A stretch of DNA of 64,000 bases from Crocinitomicaceae bacterium (GTDB taxonomy: Bacteria; Bacteroidota; Bacteroidia; Flavobacteriales_D; Crocinitomicaceae): positions 1 to 64,000 of the forward strand of contig JAGYIR010000006.1 in NCBI GenBank assembly GCA_018402525.1, written 5' to 3'. Under the pieces are notes generated by a model, which ran no database searches, was not told where the DNA came from, and saw nothing but the letters and a program-made list of their open reading frames with translations. Within the stretch, counting starts at the first letter, position 1. Each line of letters opens with the position of its first letter. The translations under genes and the position numbers were made by a program. Positions 3,190-36,405 of this stretch are shown here, in pieces.

Positions 3190-4364
3190 AGATTCTCTAC
3201 GTTACACATAAACCAATATACCCTAAAGTAGACGGTGGTTGCGTGGCAATGGACAACTTCTTGCGCATGCTTACCGCTTCAAATCACAGCGTTAAGCACA
3301 TAACGGTTTCAACAGTAAAACATCCGTTTGATGAATTAAATTATCCTGCTGAACTACGAAAACTTGTTTCCCCAGAAGCTGTTGAAGTTGATACCCGAAT
3401 TAAATCTTTTCAAGCCCTTTTAGCGCTTTTTTTGAAAAAATCGTACAACGTGCGTCGTTTTGAGTCGGTAGAAATGAGAAAACGAATTACAGCTCTTCTA
3501 CATGAACAATCCTACGACTGCGTAATTCTCGAAAGTCTGTATACTTCAGTTTTTTTGGAGGATATGCGCTGCGCATTCAAAGGAAAAGTCTACTTGAGAA
3601 CACATAACGTTGAGTTCCATATATGGAAGAATCTCGCTACCAATTGCCAGCATTTTTTGAAAAGATTATACCTCACAAAGCTCTCGAAGGACTTAAAACG
3701 TTATGAATTACGAATTTTAAACGCTGTAGACGGAATTATCTCAATTTCAAGAGATGATACCTCTACTTTTCAATCTTTAGGCGTTAAAACGCAGATAACA
3801 ACCATCTCATTGGGATTTTCAATGGAAGAAACACACTCCAACAATTACACAGGAGCAAATTTCTTTCATTTAGGCGCACTAAATTGGGAACCCAACCGTG
3901 AAGCTGTCGATAGGTTGGTTGCGTTATTTCCAAAGATTAAAGAAGTGATTCCTGATACACAGTTGCATATTATTGGAGACGGAAGTGAGAAATTAGCCGT
4001 TACAGAAAACAACATTCACTTAGACGGATTTGTAACCGATCTTGCTTCACATTGTCAATCAATTGGAATACTTGTAACTCCGATTACATCAGGGTCTGGA
4101 ATTCGAATCAAGATCCTAGAAATGATGGCGCTTGGAATCCCAGTCATAACGACTATAACTGGCGCACAAGGAATTGATTATTCATCAACTGATTGTCTCG
4201 TGATTGCCGATACCAACGAAGACATTGTTACGGCTTGCAAACAACTAGCGACTTCAGAAAAACTAAGGAAAACTATTGGAACCCAAGCAAGAACTTACAT
4301 CAGTGAACACCATCAATTTGAAACGAACAGAAAGCAATTAAATGAGTTCATTGAACGAAACTAA
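3186..4364 (+). CDS. GT-B glycosyltransferase (family 4 type)
   Basis: The 392-residue protein has the two-domain layout of family-4 glycosyltransferases: an N-terminal acceptor domain starting 'KILYVTHKPIYPKVDGG' and a C-terminal Rossmann domain with 'FFHLGALNWEPNREAVDRL' and the donor-binding segment 'SGIRIKILEMMALGIPVITT' (about residues 300-320). It should transfer a sugar from a nucleotide donor at the cytoplasmic face in surface polysaccharide assembly. The GTG start overlaps the permease stop (GTGA), and the gene end overlaps the next glycosyltransferase by 23 bases, so the three genes are translated as a unit. Sugar and acceptor cannot be told from sequence. Confidence 0.85.
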   Translation: MKILYVTHKPIYPKVDGGCVAMDNFLRMLTASNHSVKHITVSTVKHPFDELNYPAELRKLVSPEAVEVDTRIKSFQALLALFLKKSYNVRRFESVEMRKRITALLHEQSYDCVILESLYTSVFLEDMRCAFKGKVYLRTHNVEFHIWKNLATNCQHFLKRLYLTKLSKDLKRYELRILNAVDGIISISRDDTSTFQSLGVKTQITTISLGFSMEETHSNNYTGANFFHLGALNWEPNREAVDRLVALFPKIKEVIPDTQLHIIGDGSEKLAVTENNIHLDGFVTDLASHCQSIGILVTPITSGSGIRIKILEMMALGIPVITTITGAQGIDYSSTDCLVIADTNEDIVTACKQLATSEKLRKTIGTQARTYISEHHQFETNRKQLNEFIERN

Positions 4365-29312: not shown

Positions 29313-30764
29313 ATGGATACAGCGTTGGGCTACGAAACAGAACTAAAGTCTCATATTGAACGTGAGCGTGCAGCAGTAAGTTTATCAGGTAAAGTGGGAG
29401 AATTACTTTACGACAAAGGAATTGAATTGGTGTTGTTCAGAAATCACCTAATGGACATCACAATCTCTGAAATTCTCAATTTGCACGAATATTCCAGAAC
29501 AGTGGTAAACAAGCCAGTAGATATTTTTACTACGTCTGATTTGGCAGAAGAATTAATGAAGTTAGATTTAGCTCCAGCGAAAATCGACATTGGAAAATTA
29601 GCAAGCGAGTACATTTCAGAAAAAGGAAACTATGCTTCCAAGGCAGATTTCTTGATGAACAAATTAAAAGGATTCGAAACTGGAAATGGAATTCCTTTTG
29701 AACCTAGAGATGTGATTTTGTACGGATTTGGTCGTATCGGACGTTTAGCCGCTCGTGAGTTGATCAAACAAGCAGGAAAAGGTCAACAATTGAGACTCCG
29801 TGCGATTGTGACGCGAAGCAATTCGGAAGCAGACATGATTAAACGTGCCTCTTTACTGAAGAACGATTCTGTCCACGGTGCATTTAAAGGAAGTGTAGAA
29901 GTTGATTTAGAAAACGAATCAATCATTCTCAACGGTCAAATCGTTAAAATGATATGTGCTAAAAATCCAGAAGATGTTGACTATACGGCTTATGGAATTA
30001 ATAATGCACTCGTGATTGACAACACAGGTGTCTTTACAACAAAAGAGGCATTGTCGAGACACTTGAAATCAAAAGGAACTTCACGTGTTTTGTTAACCGC
30101 TCCAGGAAAAGAAATTCCAAATGTTGTTTATGGTATCAATCAGGATGACATTGATTTGGCAAATGAGCGCATCTATTCTGCGGCATCTTGTACAACCAAT
30201 GCAATTTCTCCTGTTCTAAAAGTTGTGAACGACAAGTTGGGTGTGATAAAAGGACACATTGAAACAGTTCACGCATATACGAATGATCAAAACTTGTTGG
30301 ACAACATGCACAACAAACCACGAAGAGGTCGTTCTGCAGCAATCAACATGGTAATTACATCTACTGGTGCAGGAAATGCAGTAACCAAAGTTATTCCAGA
30401 GCTTAAAGATAAATTGACAGCAAACGCTGTTCGTGTACCTACTCCAAACGGATCTTTAGCTATTCTTAGTTTAGAAGTTGAAAAAGGTACTACTGTTGAT
30501 GAGCTAAACGAGATGATGAAAGACGCAGCACTAAATGGAGATTTAGTGAATCAGATTTATTATGCAAATGATCCAGAGCTGGTATCAAGTGATATTATTG
30601 GAAATGTTTGCTGTTCAGTATTCGATTCAAACGCTACTATCGTTTCTAAAGATGGTAAAAACGTTGTAATTTACGCGTGGTACGATAATGAGTTTGGATA
30701 CACAAAACAAGTAATTCGTCTTGCGAAATATGTTACAAAGGTTAGAAGAGCAATTTACTATTAA
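29313..30764 (+). CDS. gap: Glyceraldehyde-3-phosphate dehydrogenase, N-terminally extended form
   Basis: The 483-residue enzyme oxidises glyceraldehyde 3-phosphate in glycolysis or runs in reverse in gluconeogenesis. Residues from about 133 form a normal GAPDH: 'GFGRIGRLAARELI' (NAD-binding), catalytic Cys in 'IYSAASCTTNAISPVLKVV' (about 292), 'NMVITSTGAGNAVTKVIPEL' and 'WYDNEFGYTKQVIRL'. The first 130 residues are a helical extension absent from standard 330-residue enzymes; long forms of this kind occur in Bacteroidetes and some other phyla. Flanking terminators make it a single-gene unit. Confidence 0.94.
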   Translation: MDTALGYETELKSHIERERAAVSLSGKVGELLYDKGIELVLFRNHLMDITISEILNLHEYSRTVVNKPVDIFTTSDLAEELMKLDLAPAKIDIGKLASEYISEKGNYASKADFLMNKLKGFETGNGIPFEPRDVILYGFGRIGRLAARELIKQAGKGQQLRLRAIVTRSNSEADMIKRASLLKNDSVHGAFKGSVEVDLENESIILNGQIVKMICAKNPEDVDYTAYGINNALVIDNTGVFTTKEALSRHLKSKGTSRVLLTAPGKEIPNVVYGINQDDIDLANERIYSAASCTTNAISPVLKVVNDKLGVIKGHIETVHAYTNDQNLLDNMHNKPRRGRSAAINMVITSTGAGNAVTKVIPELKDKLTANAVRVPTPNGSLAILSLEVEKGTTVDELNEMMKDAALNGDLVNQIYYANDPELVSSDIIGNVCCSVFDSNATIVSKDGKNVVIYAWYDNEFGYTKQVIRLAKYVTKVRRAIYY

Positions 30765-30780
30765 TCCCTCTATAAAAAAC

Positions 30781-30820
30781 AAAAACGGGTTCGCTTAATT
30801 TTAATAGTGAACCCGTTTTT
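30781..30820. terminator. Bidirectional terminator between gap and mini-lipoprotein gene
   Basis: A 12-base stem (30781-30792 with 30809-30820) around a 16-base AT-rich loop begins with A5 and ends with T-run, so it can act in both directions. It directly abuts the stop codon of the convergent mini-lipoprotein gene. Confidence 0.85.
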
Positions 30821-31039
30821 TTATTCCTCTCTACAGTCGACGTCGTAAGTAACGCCTCCTGAAACATATCCGGTAGACTCAACGACATTGATTTCATTTC
30901 CACAAAGCTCACCCAATGACTCTTCTCCTGCCGATCCATTGTAATAGCAATACTTGCAATCATCATCTTTTGTACAAGACATAATTGAAAAGGTCAGGAC
31001 GACTGCACCTAATCCTATGATATTTCTAAAATTTTTCAT
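30821..31039 (-). CDS. Cys-rich mini-lipoprotein, copy 3
   Basis: The 72-residue product has a lipoprotein signal ending 'FSIMSC' and a 50-residue mature part with four further Cys: 'DDCKYCYYNG', 'LGELCGNEI' and 'VDCREE'. It is the most diverged of three tandem paralogues: the spacing of Cys is kept, but the His residues that follow them in the other two copies are lost, so the CXXCH becomes CXXCY. It shares the start 'MKNFRN' with copy 2. Family not recognised; see the finding on this locus. Confidence 0.75.
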   Translation of the reverse strand: MKNFRNIIGLGAVVLTFSIMSCTKDDDCKYCYYNGSAGEESLGELCGNEINVVESTGYVSGGVTYDVDCREE

Positions 31040-31131
31040 CTTATTAATTCGGTTGATTATATTTTTAAATCACAATACGAAGATTAAAATACGAAGATTT
31101 TTACTAGAATCAGACGTTTGTTCAAAAAAAA

Positions 31132-31347
31132 TTAATGCCGGTGACAGTGAACTTCATAGTTCGTTCCATCAACATCCACTCCAGTGGCCATTAGGTCTTC
31201 TACTTCGTTACCACATTTTTTTCCTAATGACACATCGCCATTCGGTCCTTCATAATGACACGCATGGCAGTCGAATTTCATACACGAAGAAAGCGCTGCC
31301 ATCCCAATCAACACGGTTAATCCTACTAAATTTCTAAAATTTTTCAT
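31132..31347 (-). CDS. Cys/His-rich mini-lipoprotein, copy 2
   Basis: The 71-residue product has a lipobox 'AALSSC' and a mature part with 'DCHACHYEGPNG', 'LGKKCGNEVEDL' and the end 'YEVHCHRH'. CHACH fits the CXXCH pattern of c-type haem attachment, and the C-terminal C-H-x-H could bind a metal. The intergenic sequence upstream (31348-31430) is clearly homologous to that upstream of copy 3, so gene and upstream region were duplicated together. Function unknown. Confidence 0.78.
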   Translation of the reverse strand: MKNFRNLVGLTVLIGMAALSSCMKFDCHACHYEGPNGDVSLGKKCGNEVEDLMATGVDVDGTNYEVHCHRH

Positions 31348-31432
31348 CTTCTTAATTGGGTTTATTTCATTTTCTTAATCGCAATGAGACGATTAAAATA
31401 GAAAGATTTTTCCTCGAAATGAGAATTTGAAT

Positions 31433-31464
31433 AAAAAAAGGCGCACATTCTCATGCACGCCCCC
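31433..31464 (-). terminator. Terminator after mini-lipoprotein copy 1
   Basis: On the minus strand an imperfect GC-rich stem (GGGCGTGCA with TGTGCGCC around a 6-base loop) is followed by T7. It separates copy 1, and any read-through from the TonB receptor, from copies 2 and 3. Confidence 0.75.
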
Positions 31465-31487
31465 TTATTACTAAACAAAAAAACTAT

Positions 31488-31703
31488 TTAATGTTCGTGA
31501 CAGTGAACTTCGTAATTCGTTCCGCCAACATTGATTCCTGAAGCTTCAAGGTCTTCAAGATCATCTCCGCATTTCTCACCTAGTTCAACTTCCCCACTTG
31601 GTCCGTCATAATGACATTCGTGGCACTCATCTTTCTTACATGAAGAAAACGCGACCATCGCAACCAACGCGGTCATTCCTAAAATTGCATTTACTTTTTT
31701 CAT
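31488..31703 (-). CDS. Cys/His-rich mini-lipoprotein, copy 1
   Basis: The 71-residue product has a lipobox 'VAFSSC', then 'DECHECHYDGPSG', 'LGEKCGDDLEDL' and the end 'YEVHCHEH'. The four mature Cys and five His are concentrated in two clusters, as in a metal- or haem-binding site, and the rest is acidic. It starts 27 bases after the TonB receptor stop, so it is the copy most likely to be co-transcribed with the receptor. It is the likely parent of the tandem family. Confidence 0.8.
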   Translation of the reverse strand: MKKVNAILGMTALVAMVAFSSCKKDECHECHYDGPSGEVELGEKCGDDLEDLEASGINVGGTNYEVHCHEH

Positions 31704-31730
31704 TTGATTTGTTTTTATGATTATTACTTA

Positions 31731-33959
31731 TTATTTACTTGTTTTTAACTTCCCGTTTATGGTATATCCAATATTGATATAAAAGCTTCTGCCTGGGTGT
31801 TGAAGATCAATGTTCTTCAATCCGGACAAATGGTTGATGTAAGCTGTATTCAATATATTTTTAACACCTAAAGAAATTCTAATTGGTGTTTCTAACGCAT
31901 ACAGAAAATCCATTCCAACATTCCATAGATGATAATCGGGTGATGTTATTTCATACGCAGACACCTGATTCTGATGAAAATAATATTGATGCTGAACGGT
32001 AATCTGTTCCATTTTAAATTTCCCTTTGTTTTTCAAATTAAATTTCAAAAAACTATTGATTCGTGCTTGTGGCATCAAGGCAACACTCCTTCCTGTCAGC
32101 TCCTCTCCCCTGATATATGAATAGGAACTTTCAAGATGCAACCAATGCGCAAAGTGCGGATGGTAGTGAAAACCGACATCCAGACCATACAATTGAACCA
32201 ATTCCGCTTGTTTGTATTCGAAAACGGATGCACCATCTATTATTGAATCAACTGACTGGATTTGAATGTAATTGCTGATGTAGTTATAAAAGGGATTCAC
32301 TATAAACTCAATATGTTCGCCATGCATCTCATAACTTGCGTCAATTTGAGTCGCGTATTCTGGTTGCAAGTCACGGTCACCTATTTCGTAGCGAAACGAT
32401 CCATGGTGAATTCCATCGGAGAACAATTCAGACAGATGTGGCGGACGATAACCCGTTGAAACATTCAATCGCCAAGTATGATCGTCACTCGAATGTGTTC
32501 CACCAACAGAGAAATTGGGACTTTGGTAATTCTTTTTAAAATTCATTGAACCAACATCTAGCGTACGGATGTCATAGCGAGCGCCGAATTGAAGGTTCCA
32601 TTTATTCTTCGAAAAGTAGGCAATACTGTATAATCCGTTGTCGTATTGGTTAAAATCTGGAATCAAACGCATTTCTGCCTTTGCACTGTTTCGATTCACT
32701 TGCACCATTCCTTGTAAACCAGAAATCAACTGCCAATGTTCTCCAAATACTGCTTTGAATCGAAGATTATATAACGAAGTATTTAACGTCATGTGTAATC
32801 CCGGGATGGTGACTTTCTCTTCAAATTCTGACAAATCATTCAGCGTGTGCCCTACCAAAATCCCAAGTTCGTTCTTTCCAATAAAAAACTTGTTGTCAAA
32901 TGAAACAATATGATTTTGAATCACTTGTGCTGGGATTGTATTACTTCTGCTCTGTTCATTGACCTGAAAACTGAGTGGATCAATAATAGAGTCATGTGTA
33001 TGTCCCGGAATTCCATTTCTGTTATTCGAATAAATGTAGCGCACATGAGAAGCCCAGTTCTTTTTACTAATGCCCACTCCCAACTTCACTCCTTGGTTCT
33101 TGAAACGAGAATTCTGGGCATATCTTCCATTCGGCAGTTGATAATCGGCGTTGTTGGCATACAGTCCTGCTATATTTAATCGAAAAATTCCTTTAGAAAC
33201 CTTGTACGACAGCGAGCTTGTTGTTCCCATACTCACTGTTTCGAATAGAGAGTTCACCTCAATTTCATGGGTGTTTTGTTGCGCATAAGGTGCATCAATT
33301 AGATATACCACCCCACCAAATGCATCGCCTCCGTACAGTAAAGAGGACGGACCTTTAATAACTTCTACGCTTTCTATTCCCAACTGAGTGACTGCCATTC
33401 CATGATCTCCTCCCCACTGTTGGTTTTCGACCCGCATTCCGTTTAACAGAGTCAACACTCGTACTCCTTGCATTCCACGAATTACAGGTTTTGAAATTCC
33501 AACGCCTATCGATGCTTGTTGAACGCCATTTATGTTGGAAATTGCTTCACTTAAACTGGACGATTGTATCGCATTTAATTCCTTTACCTTTAAATGATCG
33601 ATACGAAACGCATTGCTTTTAGCTAATCCTCCTGAAGGACTTGAAACAATAACATCTTCAAAATCGAGATGATGCTCCACCAAATTCAGCATAACAGTAT
33701 CTCCTCTCCTTGCTTTTACAAAACGACTTTCGTACAGCGGGTGAGAAATACGAATGGTAAACTCATTTGGCAGTGAATTCGAAAATTCAAAATAGCCGGC
33801 ACTATCGGTATACGTACCGACATGTACTTCAACGATAAAAATTGAAGCTTTGTAAAGTCCTTCCTTTTGGTTGGCATCTACAATTCGACCCGACAAATCT
33901 TGTCCGATCGTATGATTCACAGCCAAAAAGGCGAGAATCACTCCTATAAGTTGTTTCAT
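31731..33959 (-). CDS. TonB-dependent receptor, probable metal or metallophore uptake
   Basis: The 742-residue protein has a signal peptide (1-19), a short carboxypeptidase-regulatory-like domain (about 22-95), a plug with 'SKPVIRGMQGVRVLTLLNGM' and 'NQQWGGDHGMAVTQLGIESV', and a 22-strand-type barrel ending in an aromatic residue region. The 'QWGGDHG' plug segment is, as I remember it, seen in receptors of the ZnuD/zinc-copper group, and several extracellular loops are His-rich ('GIPGHTHDSI', 'FHYHPHFAHWLH'). The upstream gene encodes a His-rich export and the downstream genes Cys/His mini-lipoproteins, which supports a metal role. Substrate unproven. Confidence 0.9.
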   Translation of the reverse strand: MKQLIGVILAFLAVNHTIGQDLSGRIVDANQKEGLYKASIFIVEVHVGTYTDSAGYFEFSNSLPNEFTIRISHPLYESRFVKARRGDTVMLNLVEHHLDFEDVIVSSPSGGLAKSNAFRIDHLKVKELNAIQSSSLSEAISNINGVQQASIGVGISKPVIRGMQGVRVLTLLNGMRVENQQWGGDHGMAVTQLGIESVEVIKGPSSLLYGGDAFGGVVYLIDAPYAQQNTHEIEVNSLFETVSMGTTSSLSYKVSKGIFRLNIAGLYANNADYQLPNGRYAQNSRFKNQGVKLGVGISKKNWASHVRYIYSNNRNGIPGHTHDSIIDPLSFQVNEQSRSNTIPAQVIQNHIVSFDNKFFIGKNELGILVGHTLNDLSEFEEKVTIPGLHMTLNTSLYNLRFKAVFGEHWQLISGLQGMVQVNRNSAKAEMRLIPDFNQYDNGLYSIAYFSKNKWNLQFGARYDIRTLDVGSMNFKKNYQSPNFSVGGTHSSDDHTWRLNVSTGYRPPHLSELFSDGIHHGSFRYEIGDRDLQPEYATQIDASYEMHGEHIEFIVNPFYNYISNYIQIQSVDSIIDGASVFEYKQAELVQLYGLDVGFHYHPHFAHWLHLESSYSYIRGEELTGRSVALMPQARINSFLKFNLKNKGKFKMEQITVQHQYYFHQNQVSAYEITSPDYHLWNVGMDFLYALETPIRISLGVKNILNTAYINHLSGLKNIDLQHPGRSFYINIGYTINGKLKTSK

Positions 33960-34029
33960 TAAATGCTTGATTTTTTTTCGAACCTAATTGGGTCGCTTTC
34001 TGCTCCCTATCAAAGCTTCGCTTTTCTTG

Positions 34030-34100
34030 TTAATATTCATTGTACACCAATTTGGCAAACGGTTTTGTGTGAAAGGTCACACTCTATCTATGAATATTAA
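34030..34100. repeat. 11-bp inverted repeat between His-rich gene and TonB receptor
   Basis: TTAATATTCAT (34030-34040) and ATGAATATTAA (34090-34100) are perfect complements around 49 bases, and the right arm contains the stop codon of the His-rich gene. Within the loop there is a second small dyad, GTGTGA-AAGG-TCACAC. The arrangement could be an operator or an attenuator for the receptor gene. Confidence 0.6.
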
Positions 34101-34450
34101 GCCGTGGGAGGTCCCCTGAGCGAATAAGCCGTGAAATCAGTCTGATTGGTACAGTCAAACTCTGGATCTACTAAGGTAGAATTAATAAACTTTGCAAACG
34201 ATTCAAGTTTTACAACTGGAATCTCAAAAACATCTAAGTCGAACTCACAAATAAAACAACTTTCATTTTCTGACTCAAACGATGCTAAATGATGCTCTTC
34301 TGAATGGTCAGAATCCTGTTCGTGTGAATGATGTTCTGAATGATCGTGTTGTTCTACTGAATGATCATGTTCACAATCGTGCACAATACTTCTAGGGACG
34401 TTTAAAAAAACGAGGCAAAAAAGAAGTGTAAATGCAAAAATCTGTTTCAT
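34097..34450 (-). CDS. His-rich exported protein upstream of the TonB receptor
   Basis: From ATG 34450 the product is 117 residues: a signal peptide ('MKQIFAFTLLFCLVFLNVPR'), a His/Asp/Glu-rich segment ('HDCEHDHSVEQHDHSEHHSH', about 24-43) that must bind divalent metal, a Cys-x-x-Cys pair ('CFICEFDL') and a C-terminal 'SLRGPPTA'. His-rich proteins ending in RGPP often precede metal-uptake receptors in Bacteroidetes as I remember them. A frame extending to 34483 overlaps the adjacent pseudogene and lacks a good signal; the shorter start is preferred. A -7-like box TAGTTTTG lies just upstream. Confidence 0.78.
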   Translation of the reverse strand: MKQIFAFTLLFCLVFLNVPRSIVHDCEHDHSVEQHDHSEHHSHEQDSDHSEEHHLASFESENESCFICEFDLDVFEIPVVKLESFAKFINSTLVDPEFDCTNQTDFTAYSLRGPPTA

Positions 34451-34476
34451 GTGTTTTACAAAACTATAAAAATTTG

Positions 34477-35184
34477 CTAACATTTCGCAAATTTCTTTTT
34501 CTTACCAAGACGATTCAGGCCCGCAACCTTATCTATATAGGTTACAATTTCAGGAGTTTTGCAAGAAGTTTCTCCCATAAACACCTCTACTTTTCCGATG
34601 CGCTTTCCCGCCTCACGACACGCATCAGTTAATTCAGGAACAGCACATCCAAGAGCTATCAGGTAACCATTCATGCAATATTTCAAATGATTTTCACTTG
34701 AGTGAATTTCCTTCTCTACTCTATCGATCATTTTTCTATGAAAGTCTATTTCGAGCAAATCATTTGAAACAATTCCGAGATAAGCACTCATTGCACACCA
34801 AGCAATATGCTGAAAAACAATGTTCTTATGATTTATCCAATTTGAACAAATCTACATACACAAGGGGCTTTCAGCAATATTTCAGGCTACCGCATAATCA
34901 GAAATCATATTCCATGTTGCACCGCTTGCCCAGAGCTCAAAATCAGCAATTGAAAATTCTTTGGGATCCGCAATTAAACCAGCCAAGTATTGTGCATCAG
35001 AATTACCTGTTGCATACAAATCCATTGCTAACGAATGATTGCCTTTTAGTTTCTTTTCAAGTGGTTTTAAATCTCCTACCTTAACACCAAAAAAGTCATC
35101 AGGTGCTCCATGTCTCTTAAAGGTTTTACGTGTTTGCTCTGAGCCCTTGCTTTCAAGGTACTCCATTACTTCAGATAAAGTCAT
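34477..35184 (-). pseudogene. AlkD-like DNA alkylation repair gene with two in-frame stops
   Basis: Reading from ATG 35184 to 34477 in one frame gives a full-length (about 235 codons) HEAT-repeat DNA alkylation repair protein of the AlkD group: 'KVGDLKPLEKKLKGNHSLAM', 'NSDAQYLAGLIADPKEF', 'MISDYAVA', then 'GYLIALGCAVPELTDACREA' and the C-terminal 'TSCKTPEIVTYIDKVAGL'. The frame is broken by TGA at 34882-34884 (where the family has Trp) and TAG at 34852-34854, with no indel. The gene would remove alkylated bases from DNA. It follows a lipoprotein gene after 2 bases. Two substitutions make a sequencing error unlikely and a recent pseudogene likely. Confidence 0.88.
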
Positions 35185-35186
35185 GC

Positions 35187-35639
35187 TTATTTAATTCCTG
35201 CTGCTTTTAAGCACTTTTTCACTTTCTTTTCGTGCGCTATGCGCTCCTCAGGTGTGACATTTGGACTTTGTGCTAAAAACGCTTTACATTTTGAATCAAT
35301 TACATCAAATCGATCCGATAACCTATCGAATTCCTTATCAGAAACTGGTTTTGCAAAAGCCTTATTTATTGAATCATTCTTAACTACGCATGTACAAAAG
35401 TCCCATTGTTCGCCATGTATCCTTTCAATTTTGGCTAAACTTTGTTTGAACTCAGTTTGATTTTTTTTGTCAACCGTAGACATATCATAATCAGAAATGA
35501 TCTGCTTATCCAATGTGTCTTTTAAATCATTATCAACCGTTAATGAATCGGTTTCATTCGTTAAATTATCATCATTGTTAACATCAGTTGTACAACTAAT
35601 TGCTGCGAATAACGTTATAAAGAATAGAAGTTTGTTCAT
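35187..35639 (-). CDS. Acidic lipoprotein, function unknown
   Basis: The 150-residue product has a lipobox 'FAAISC' (Cys16), an Asp/Asn/Thr-rich linker, and a helical second half with 'WDFCTCVVKNDSINKAFAKP', 'DSKCKAFLAQSPNVTPEERI' and 'KVKKCLKAAG'. The four Cys in the C-terminal half probably form two disulfides. Similar small lipoproteins are frequent in Flavobacteriales, but I know no function. It lies 2 bases upstream of the broken AlkD-like gene. Confidence 0.72.
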   Translation of the reverse strand: MNKLLFFITLFAAISCTTDVNNDDNLTNETDSLTVDNDLKDTLDKQIISDYDMSTVDKKNQTEFKQSLAKIERIHGEQWDFCTCVVKNDSINKAFAKPVSDKEFDRLSDRFDVIDSKCKAFLAQSPNVTPEERIAHEKKVKKCLKAAGIK

Positions 35640-35727
35640 CGAAATCTTTCTTTGGCAGATTTTTTGATTTATTAGAGTTCAATTATACGAACTTATTTGT
35701 AAACTAAGTCAATAAAAAAACAAGAAA

Positions 35728-36405
35728 ATGTATAGAATTATCATAGTCCTACTTTCAGTTATCCTTTTTAGACCAGCATTTACTCAAGTCACTGCATCCG
35801 TAGAAAAGGAGCAGCAAATCAAAGAGATGCGAGTCGACATCAACTTTAACCAGAAATACAAACGTCAGCTTCGTCTTTTAAAGCGCACTTACCCTATGGC
35901 AATAAAGGCCAAAGAATTAATCAACGAATACGAATCTGATTTGGCGGATATTTCACGACGTAGAAAGCAAAAAAAATACAGCAAGCAGGCACATCAACAG
36001 TTAAAGGATGAATTTGTTTACAATATTCGAGACCTATACACAAGCGAAGGAGATTTGCTCATGAAACTCGTGCATCGAGAAACAGGGATGACGGTCAATG
36101 AAATAATAAAAAATTACCGTGGAAGTCTTCAAACTGGCATGTATACTGGACTTGCCAAAATTTGGGGCAACGACCTAAATGCCACGTATGATCCCCTAGG
36201 TGACGATTGGATCACAGAAATTGTCATTCAGGACATTGAAAGTGGCAGAATTAAATTCGATAAAACCATGAAAAAAATGGACAAGGCTGCTTACAAGGAA
36301 AGCATGGATGAATACCATGAATCACGCAAGGAATCAAAGGCGCGCATGAAGCAGGTGAAAAAAGATAATCGCGCCGCAAAAAAAGCAGCTGCTCGAAACA
36401 ACTAA
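35728..36405 (+). CDS. DUF4294-domain protein
   Basis: The 225-residue protein has a signal peptide (1-20) and the DUF4294 core: 'YPMAIKAKELINEYESDLAD', 'RRKQKKYSKQAHQQLKDEFV', 'GDLLMKLVHRETGMTVNEII' and 'NDLNATYDPLGDDWITEIVI'. It is a Bacteroidetes-specific family without known function, probably periplasmic. The C-terminus is a Lys/Arg/Ala-rich tail. It converges with the dehydrogenase gene, with a one-base gap. Confidence 0.88.
   Translation: MYRIIIVLLSVILFRPAFTQVTASVEKEQQIKEMRVDINFNQKYKRQLRLLKRTYPMAIKAKELINEYESDLADISRRRKQKKYSKQAHQQLKDEFVYNIRDLYTSEGDLLMKLVHRETGMTVNEIIKNYRGSLQTGMYTGLAKIWGNDLNATYDPLGDDWITEIVIQDIESGRIKFDKTMKKMDKAAYKESMDEYHESRKESKARMKQVKKDNRAAKKAAARNN

Follow-up and report, generated by a model that had tools for sequence, protein, structure and literature searches.

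The locus studied here is found on the minus strand of the window, by which we mean the whole 64-kb stretch of DNA that was analysed. A gene for a small His-rich protein is followed by that of a TonB-dependent receptor and then by three genes for small lipoproteins, named here copies 1, 2 and 3; the last of them faces a convergent GAPDH-like gene. The positions of all features are presented in Table 1. The inverted repeat between copy 3 and the GAPDH-like gene is probably a two-way terminator, and a terminator-like stem is found 3' of copy 1 (31458-31441); such matches number 3, against 3.3 expected from shuffled sequence. The inverted repeat 5' of copy 2 is partly retained 5' of copy 3 and is possibly an operator of another kind. 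Two ORFs of the minus strand (34882-35184 and 34477-34791), adjoining the start of the His-rich gene, correspond to the two ends of one protein, which is a single ORF of 235 amino acids near the receptor in L140 and apparently also in L041 and L180; the pair (34477-35184) reads as either a broken gene or a sequencing error.

Table 1. Features of the receptor–lipoprotein locus, with positions in the window
Feature	Position	Strand	Description
GAPDH-like gene, convergent to copy 3	29313-30764		Identity from sequence inspection
Inverted repeat at the junction of copy 3 and the GAPDH-like gene	30776..30825		20-nt arms, 85% complementary
Lipoprotein copy 3	30821..31039	-	72 aa, tandem paralogue; four Cys present, His absent
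Region 5' of copy 3	31040..31131	-	Homologous to the region 5' of copy 2
Lipoprotein copy 2	31132..31347	-	71 aa, tandem paralogue, CHACHY...C...VHCHRH
Region 5' of copy 2	31348..31487	-	Inverted repeat TTTTAATCG-N8-CGATTAAGA, one mismatch
Lipoprotein copy 1	31488..31703	-	71 aa, CHECHY...C...VHCHEH; counterpart of the receptor-linked family
TonB-dependent receptor, ZnuD-like	31731..33959	-	Pfam barrel and plug, ZnuD (4rdr) match, residue mapping, model
Small His-rich protein	34097..34483	-	Signal-like start, C-terminal RGPPTA; similar protein 5' of the receptor in some relatives

The preliminary description of this DNA had reported three lipoproteins of 71-72 residues with the common layout lipobox-CxxC-C-C, and the ORFs confirm it: all three lie on the minus strand and have a lipobox ending in SC at residue 22. 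The motifs were also read correctly, CHECH...CHEH in copy 1, CHACH...CHRH in copy 2 and CKYCY...DCREE in copy 3, which has not one His. With copy 1 as the tblastn query against its own genome, copy 2 is matched with 58% identity (3.7e-28) and copy 3 with 41% (5.5e-14), and on this comparison the three copies are homologous beyond chance; they are the only strong matches in that genome. The coding DNA of copies 1 and 2 matches at 72% across 202 nt. The DNA 5' of copies 2 and 3 matches at 86% across 56 nt, reaching the ORF start, and at 79% across 48 nt, which bears out the earlier proposal that gene and promoter were duplicated together; copy 1 shows no upstream match of this kind. The stop of the receptor gene and the start of copy 1 are 27 bp apart and copy 1 looks co-transcribed with the receptor, while copies 2 and 3 each have an upstream region of their own.

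With lipoprotein copy 1 as query, 62 of the 150 family genomes sampled gave a match; with a 30-row profile it was 153 of the 399 from the order, by which chance ORFs are ruled out. Across the phylum the 30-row profile matched five of 395 genomes, and the only two strong matches are both from Crocinitomicaceae, so a phylum-wide family is ruled out as well. The pairing with the receptor is conserved in several families and extends to one genome beyond the order but within the class (L118); Crocinitomix algicola (L040) is among the named relatives with the lipoprotein. No family or chain above cut-off was found for the lipoprotein in Pfam, NCBIfam or the PDB, and its profile retrieved no PDB chain at E 0.1 or better; BtuG/HmuY-type lids are presumably among those chains and would be covered by this result. 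The predicted structure has a mean pLDDT of 74, with 86-91 in the four ten-residue blocks of residues 31-70. It matched no fold in the PDB (Foldseek best E 0.64, VIA-align best Z 2.7), and the absent match does not show that the fold is new.

For the pairing we used 132 matching ORFs, 85 of them distinct by their last 50 residues, from source loci that favour the best matches. These comprise 73 with CxxCH and a C-terminal HC, 11 with neither motif and one with CxxCH without HC (L099), which has no receptor nearby. The homologues are not confined to places far from receptors: among the 72 CxxCH/HC homologues that have 300 bp or more of DNA upstream, 68 lie on the same strand within 300 bp behind a receptor of the window's type, an adjacency like that of BtuG/HmuY-type lids. 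In these 68 pairs the median gap is 3 bp, and nine overlap by 4 bp. The four unpaired genes are copy 2 of the window, two identical additional tandem copies (L104 and L097), whose loci have the first copy directly behind the receptor, and G110, where an insert of 717 bp separates the two genes. As a control, none of the 11 relatives with neither His motif lies directly behind a receptor (Fisher p 2.4e-10, uncorrected for kinship). In 27 sampled genomes, a receptor match with E below 1e-100 is found in all seven with the lipoprotein and in three of the 20 without it. Three related receptors (G144, G040 and G114) have no lipoprotein gene behind them, so the lipoprotein is dispensable. Tandem amplification is recurrent: L097 has three copies, L104 two identical ones and L098 a doubled receptor-lipoprotein unit.

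There is also a difference in the conservation of Cys and His. Of the 73 CxxCH/HC members, 69 contain CxxCHY, 70 contain VHC and 71 have a terminal His. Two of the 11 motif-less relatives are further tandem copies at receptor loci (copy 3 of the window and copy 2 of L041), the other nine being located elsewhere. In eight of the 11 the mature part is free of His, and in three it contains one or two. The arrangement CxxC, C, C is kept in eight of the 11 and is looser in L004, L005 and L074. Since the motif-less relatives sit elsewhere or as extra tandem copies, most of them with four Cys, the Cys look like a shared scaffold, and the His, which go with the receptor, look like the zinc feature. 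The preliminary description had taken the loss of all His in copy 3 as a sign of a changed ligand; the His are indeed absent, and loss of the ligand describes the copy better, with no His left. Copy 3 is probably a His-free derivative whose metal role has gone too, and such copies may be structural partners or decaying paralogues. In a tree of 21 rows, copy 3 groups weakly (94/96, unstarred) with copy 2 of L041 and L096, two other copies without CxxCH; only one of the 18 inner branches is starred, and dating copy 3 from a tree this weak was abandoned.

The receptor contains the barrel and plug of a TonB-dependent receptor (PF00593, 2.6e-30; PF07715, 8.5e-19). Its best PDB sequence match is ZnuD (4rdr, 2.2e-19) and its top NCBIfam model is also ZnuD; because the score of 125 bits is far under the cut-off of 950 bits, we name it ZnuD-like and not ZnuD. 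The AlphaFold model (mean pLDDT 71) has the fold of a TonB receptor. In structural comparison BtuB scores higher (Z 34.1) than ZnuD (Z 31.1), and the ZnuD alignment, with 20% identity across 564 residues, has the highest identity among the matches listed; the OprC copper receptors share the same fold. In the available text on ZnuD (PMC4557270), zinc is held by D99, H100, E340 and H499, with loop-3 sites that include H241 and H243. D99, H100, H241, H243 and H499 align with D185, H186, H320, H322 and H518 of the receptor, where D185-H186 lie in the plug and H320 and H322 in a loop (GIPGH320TH322D); three of the four high-affinity ligands (D99, H100 and H499) are compared here, as E340 falls beyond the aligned stretches. 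A further His cluster, HYHPHFAHWLH, occupies residues 598-608.

These positions were compared in 98 distinct receptors, 64 linked to the lipoprotein and 33 unlinked, with that of the window kept separate. D185, H186, H320, H322 and H518 are identical in all 64 linked receptors. In the 33 unlinked ones, H186 is present in all and H518 in 32, D185 in five (the residue is usually Glu, in 27) and the HxH pair of the loop in four. The four with the pair are L138 and L151, where the lipoprotein has been lost, L172, where the two genes are in fact linked across the 717-bp insert, and L147, whose lipoprotein is a different one. At L140, another locus that has lost the lipoprotein, both loop-3 His positions are Glu. 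All His of the HYHPHxxHxxH turn are invariant in the linked receptors. In the unlinked ones H600 is kept in 31 of 33 and H602 in 27, while H605 (64/64 linked) is found in 11 and H598 (64/64 linked) in 21. The turn is predicted to be periplasmic, opposite the H518 loop; its HxHPH core, which is absent from ZnuD in the sequence alignment, is possibly a zinc exit site. The presence of the lipoprotein thus appears to be tied more to the outer loop than to the inner turn, and the outer face is preferred because the loop-3 His pair tracks the lipoprotein more closely than H600 and H602 do. This argument is weakened by common descent, which confounds correlations between residues, and by H605 and H598, which point the opposite way. 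Concerning topology, C-X-K-(D/E)2 is described in the available text of PMC5080379 as a surface export signal of C. canimorsus. Copies 1 and 3 carry it and copy 2 does not; as it is present in 14 of the 73 homologues, its use as proof of topology was dropped.

The small His-rich protein in front of the receptor belongs to no family above cut-off in Pfam or NCBIfam. Small His-rich proteins ending in R-G/A-P-P are found 5' of such receptors in numerous genomes of the class (L124, L125, L128-L131, L135 and L156-L159), also where the lipoprotein is absent. On this arrangement, the His-rich protein may be a second, unnamed partner of the receptor.

Upstream DNA was compared in 40 lipoprotein-bearing genomes, picked for diversity and flank. 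In 22 of the 40 loci the receptor is preceded, at a distance of at most 500 bp, by a divergent Fur-family gene, with a His-rich gene in between at L174; six of the 40 have a His-rich gene in front, and L174 is the only one of the six with operator and Fur gene. The palindrome TGCAACAnTGTTGCA is found with up to two mismatches at 21 of the 22 loci with the Fur-family gene, at five of the 18 without it and in none of 40 control stretches taken from within the receptor gene. When L118, L122, L123, L147 and L152 are added to the 22, 26 of the 27 Fur-receptor regions have the palindrome at this threshold, often twice; the sole exception is L195, where the region is shortened by an over-long ORF start. 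With up to one mismatch, 16 genomes chosen among those bearing the Fur-family gene have 42 sites, 22 of them at the receptor, against four for a reversed-pattern control. The other sites fall into 19 regions. A CobW/COG0523 gene is found behind the site in two of these, a methyltransferase-ZIP operon in three (two of the three ZIP proteins were scanned), a MerC gene in two and a carbonic anhydrase gene in one; another site lies between a DtxR-type gene and a different TonB receptor, and another before a short His-rich protein. Six of the remaining nine are intragenic (L236, L238-L242) and three have no recognised zinc gene adjacent (L225, L234 and L237); these nine look like chance or unexplained sites. 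The MerC-domain proteins directly after the palindrome (L226:2197-2598 and L231:2142-2546) are candidate zinc transporters or chaperones.

ZIP, COG0523 and TonB receptor genes are established Zur targets according to the available text of PMC6103462. With the regulator profile, E. coli Zur is the first PDB match (1.8e-11) and Fur the second (7.2e-10). The best NCBIfam model is Zur for three of seven regulators, PerR for two, Fur for one and none for one, and in another scan of four regulators Zur for three and Fur for one, all far below the cut-offs. The regulators lean to Zur, not cleanly, and individual proteins cannot be clearly assigned to Zur, PerR or Fur; the zinc reading draws on the operator's regulon more than on the regulator's name.

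At the window's own receptor operon a Zur operator was sought in three ways and was not found. The palindrome TGCAACAnTGTTGCA with up to three mismatches has five matches in the 64 kb, against 5.5 expected, and none at the locus; it is also absent within three mismatches from the two stretches tested; and a weight matrix run over 30764-36000 scored at best 5.2, compared with at least 18.0 for all 41 training sites. A Pfam search of the organism's own genome gave one Fur-family gene, which is Fur-like. That this is the only one is ruled out by a second, Zur-like gene (Pfam 4.1e-4; 20.9 bits, below the cut-off of 23.1). It lies on contig C10 around 127843 (L273), at a great distance from the window, and is divergent from a short ORF and a CobW gene of the ZigA-type GTPases. 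The DNA separating the Zur-like and ZigA-type genes carries two operator-like sites, TGCAACACAATTGCA and TGCAATAATGTTGCA. The Zur-like protein has 67% identity to its receptor-adjacent counterpart in L174 and 59% to the one in L118. Among NCBIfam models, Zur fits it best (9.2e-9; 35 bits, cut-off 167), and the best model of the CobW protein is the zinc metallochaperone ZigA (2.2e-163; 544 bits, cut-off 600). Of the 11 core sites with one mismatch inspected in the genome, most lie inside ORFs, and only the Zur/ZigA one precedes a recognised zinc gene. By these matches the regulator, its operator and a part of the regulon are present in the organism's genome, but the promoter of the receptor operon shows no operator. 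The Zur-like gene strengthens the zinc reading, but not the control of the window's operon by Zur; as it supports no such control, we left the odds given below unchanged.

Taking these data together, the three small lipoproteins are probably dedicated zinc-handling helpers and not haem proteins. In the reading that we prefer, to which we assign a probability of about 0.55, copy 1 would be the dedicated lipoprotein partner of a ZnuD-like, zinc-importing receptor, in a lipoprotein-assisted zinc uptake similar to that of BtuG-BtuB. The lipoprotein would be lipid-anchored at the outer membrane, and its four invariant Cys would form two disulphides that hold a domain of about 50 residues (beta-hairpin, helix, beta). 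Its conserved His (CxxC-H, V-H-C and the terminal H) would bind Zn(II), most likely on the outer face by loop 3 (G-x-P-x-H-x-H), and the protein, lying above like a lid, would hand the zinc to the pocket of D185, H186 and H518, from which TonB energy would free it towards the periplasmic His cluster H598-H608. Copy 2 is an additional His-bearing copy. In many relatives the unit would be under the divergent Zur-like repressor and so would be made at zinc shortage. Concerning its origin, we suggest tentatively that a disulphide-bonded micro-lipoprotein of about 50 residues, from the abundant pool of small Cys-rich and His-poor lipoproteins of Bacteroidota, gained the His set and became a zinc-capturing lid on a ZnuD-like receptor, controlled by Zur in many lineages; this would be a new and minimal form of transport aided by a lipoprotein.

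The side of the membrane is the point on which a rather unlikely alternative differs: the lipoprotein would face the periplasm, take zinc at the HYHPHxxHxxH exit of the receptor and pass it to an inner-membrane importer. The 59 of 73 homologues without C-X-K-(D/E)2 agree with a periplasmic acceptor, as do the invariant His cluster, placed opposite the H518 loop from the strand order of the model, and H605 and H598, which are commoner in linked receptors; however, copies 1 and 3 fit the C. canimorsus surface signal, H600 and H602 persist in most unlinked receptors, whereas the loop-3 His pair is kept in 4/33 of these and in 64/64 linked ones. Whether the lipoprotein binds metal at all is the question raised by another reading, in which it is a structural or gating accessory, or a sensor, and itself metal-free. 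Its tiny size, its loss with the receptor retained (G144, G040 and G114) and the copies without His motifs at receptor loci (window copy 3 and L041 copy 2) are in keeping with an accessory. We regard this as unlikely in view of the near-invariance of CHY, VHC and the terminal His (69, 70 and 71 of 73) and of the position of the motif-less relatives, elsewhere or as extra tandem copies; also, the CxC-type lipoprotein behind the G002 receptor (L147) is His-enriched, although the relatives of it that are listed have mostly none or one His.

The cargo leaves room for two further readings. His/Cys sets bind copper too, the OprC copper receptors share the fold and no Zur operator was detected at the window's operon, all of which would be compatible with the same machine importing copper, nickel/cobalt or a metallophore instead of free zinc. 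We give this little credence, since the receptor has the ZnuD-type ligand set and the operator of the relatives is common to ZIP and COG0523 genes. The preliminary description had proposed a surface metal-relay or haem-binding system together with the receptor, with CxxCH attaching c-type haem; the corresponding model is a mono-haem c-type lipoprotein with the C-terminal His as distal ligand. The metal system tied to a receptor stands, given the conserved pairing, the ZnuD-like receptor, the Fur/Zur gene and ZIP/CobW regulon of the relatives and the Zur/ZigA locus of the organism's own genome. The haem part was dropped as the leading idea. Copies 1 and 2 have CxxCH, as do the 73 homologues, a class defined by that motif, but the Cys are accounted for without haem: CxxCH-less relatives, copy 3 included, keep the CxxC pair and the two other Cys where the His are lost, which fits disulphides. 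The neighbours and the regulon are of the zinc type, no cytochrome family was found for the copies in Pfam or NCBIfam, and nothing in the data asks for haem, so that a haem c protein is highly unlikely.

Several known systems resemble the one described here. ZnuD of Neisseria (PDB 4rdr/4rdt/4rvw) is the best sequence match of the receptor, with five zinc-site residues aligned; at about 20% identity, the window's receptor differs from it in an extra CarboxypepD-like N-terminal domain, the HxHPH turn and the lipoprotein gene behind it, and the available text on ZnuD mentions no lipoprotein partner (PMC4557270). The working principle, a receptor with a dedicated substrate-binding lipoprotein, is that of BtuG-BtuB for vitamin B12 in Bacteroides, and lipoprotein-lidded transport is shown for BtuB-BtuG in the available text of PMC10404256. 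Compared with BtuG, the lipoprotein has no sequence match to a solved protein, consists of one His/Cys domain of about 50 residues and has a presumed metal-ion cargo. In Bacteroidota, HmuY-HmuR combines a small haem lipoprotein with a neighbouring TonB receptor; the lipoprotein of the window differs in having no sequence match to a solved protein and in its zinc-type neighbourhood. The relatives' Fur-family regulator, palindromic operator and ZIP, COG0523 and TonB receptor targets are like those of Zur regulons, whereas TGCAACAnTGTTGCA is unlike the E. coli consensus as given in the available text of PMC6103462 and is undetected at the window's operon.

The lipoprotein is also similar in size, lipobox, Cys content (CxC or CxxC, C, C) and tandem duplication to other small Cys-rich lipoproteins of Bacteroidota, of which we collected examples in the organism's own genome (L004, L005) and in L109-L111 and L243-L262; those have mostly few or no His and, except in L147, were not found beside this receptor. 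The examples of its own genome, on contigs C4 and C7, are further tandem pairs, are His-free and were weaker tblastn matches; a CxC-type query matched 48 of 199 genomes of the order. At L147 a CxC-type lipoprotein with extra His (3896-4129; CDCHKDF...GTHH) replaces the CxxCH lipoprotein; the receptor in front of it is ZnuD-like and accompanied by a divergent Zur-like gene. At L244 a His-enriched CxC lipoprotein (1501-1749; HGSHHHDE) is found by Zur-like and DtxR-like genes, with the start of a possible TonB receptor nearby. Both may represent separate recruitment on a CxC-type scaffold.

Outer-membrane zinc import in Bacteroidota seems to be little described, and, in the text available, none of the open-licence literature matches listed treats a receptor paired with a lipoprotein for zinc in that phylum. 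If the preferred reading, zinc uptake by the receptor with copy 1 as its partner, is true, receptor, partner lipoprotein, regulator and operator become testable together. Transport with a lipoprotein lid would then extend beyond vitamins to a bare metal ion, and a role could be given to one group among the numerous tiny Cys-rich lipoproteins that these genomes encode.
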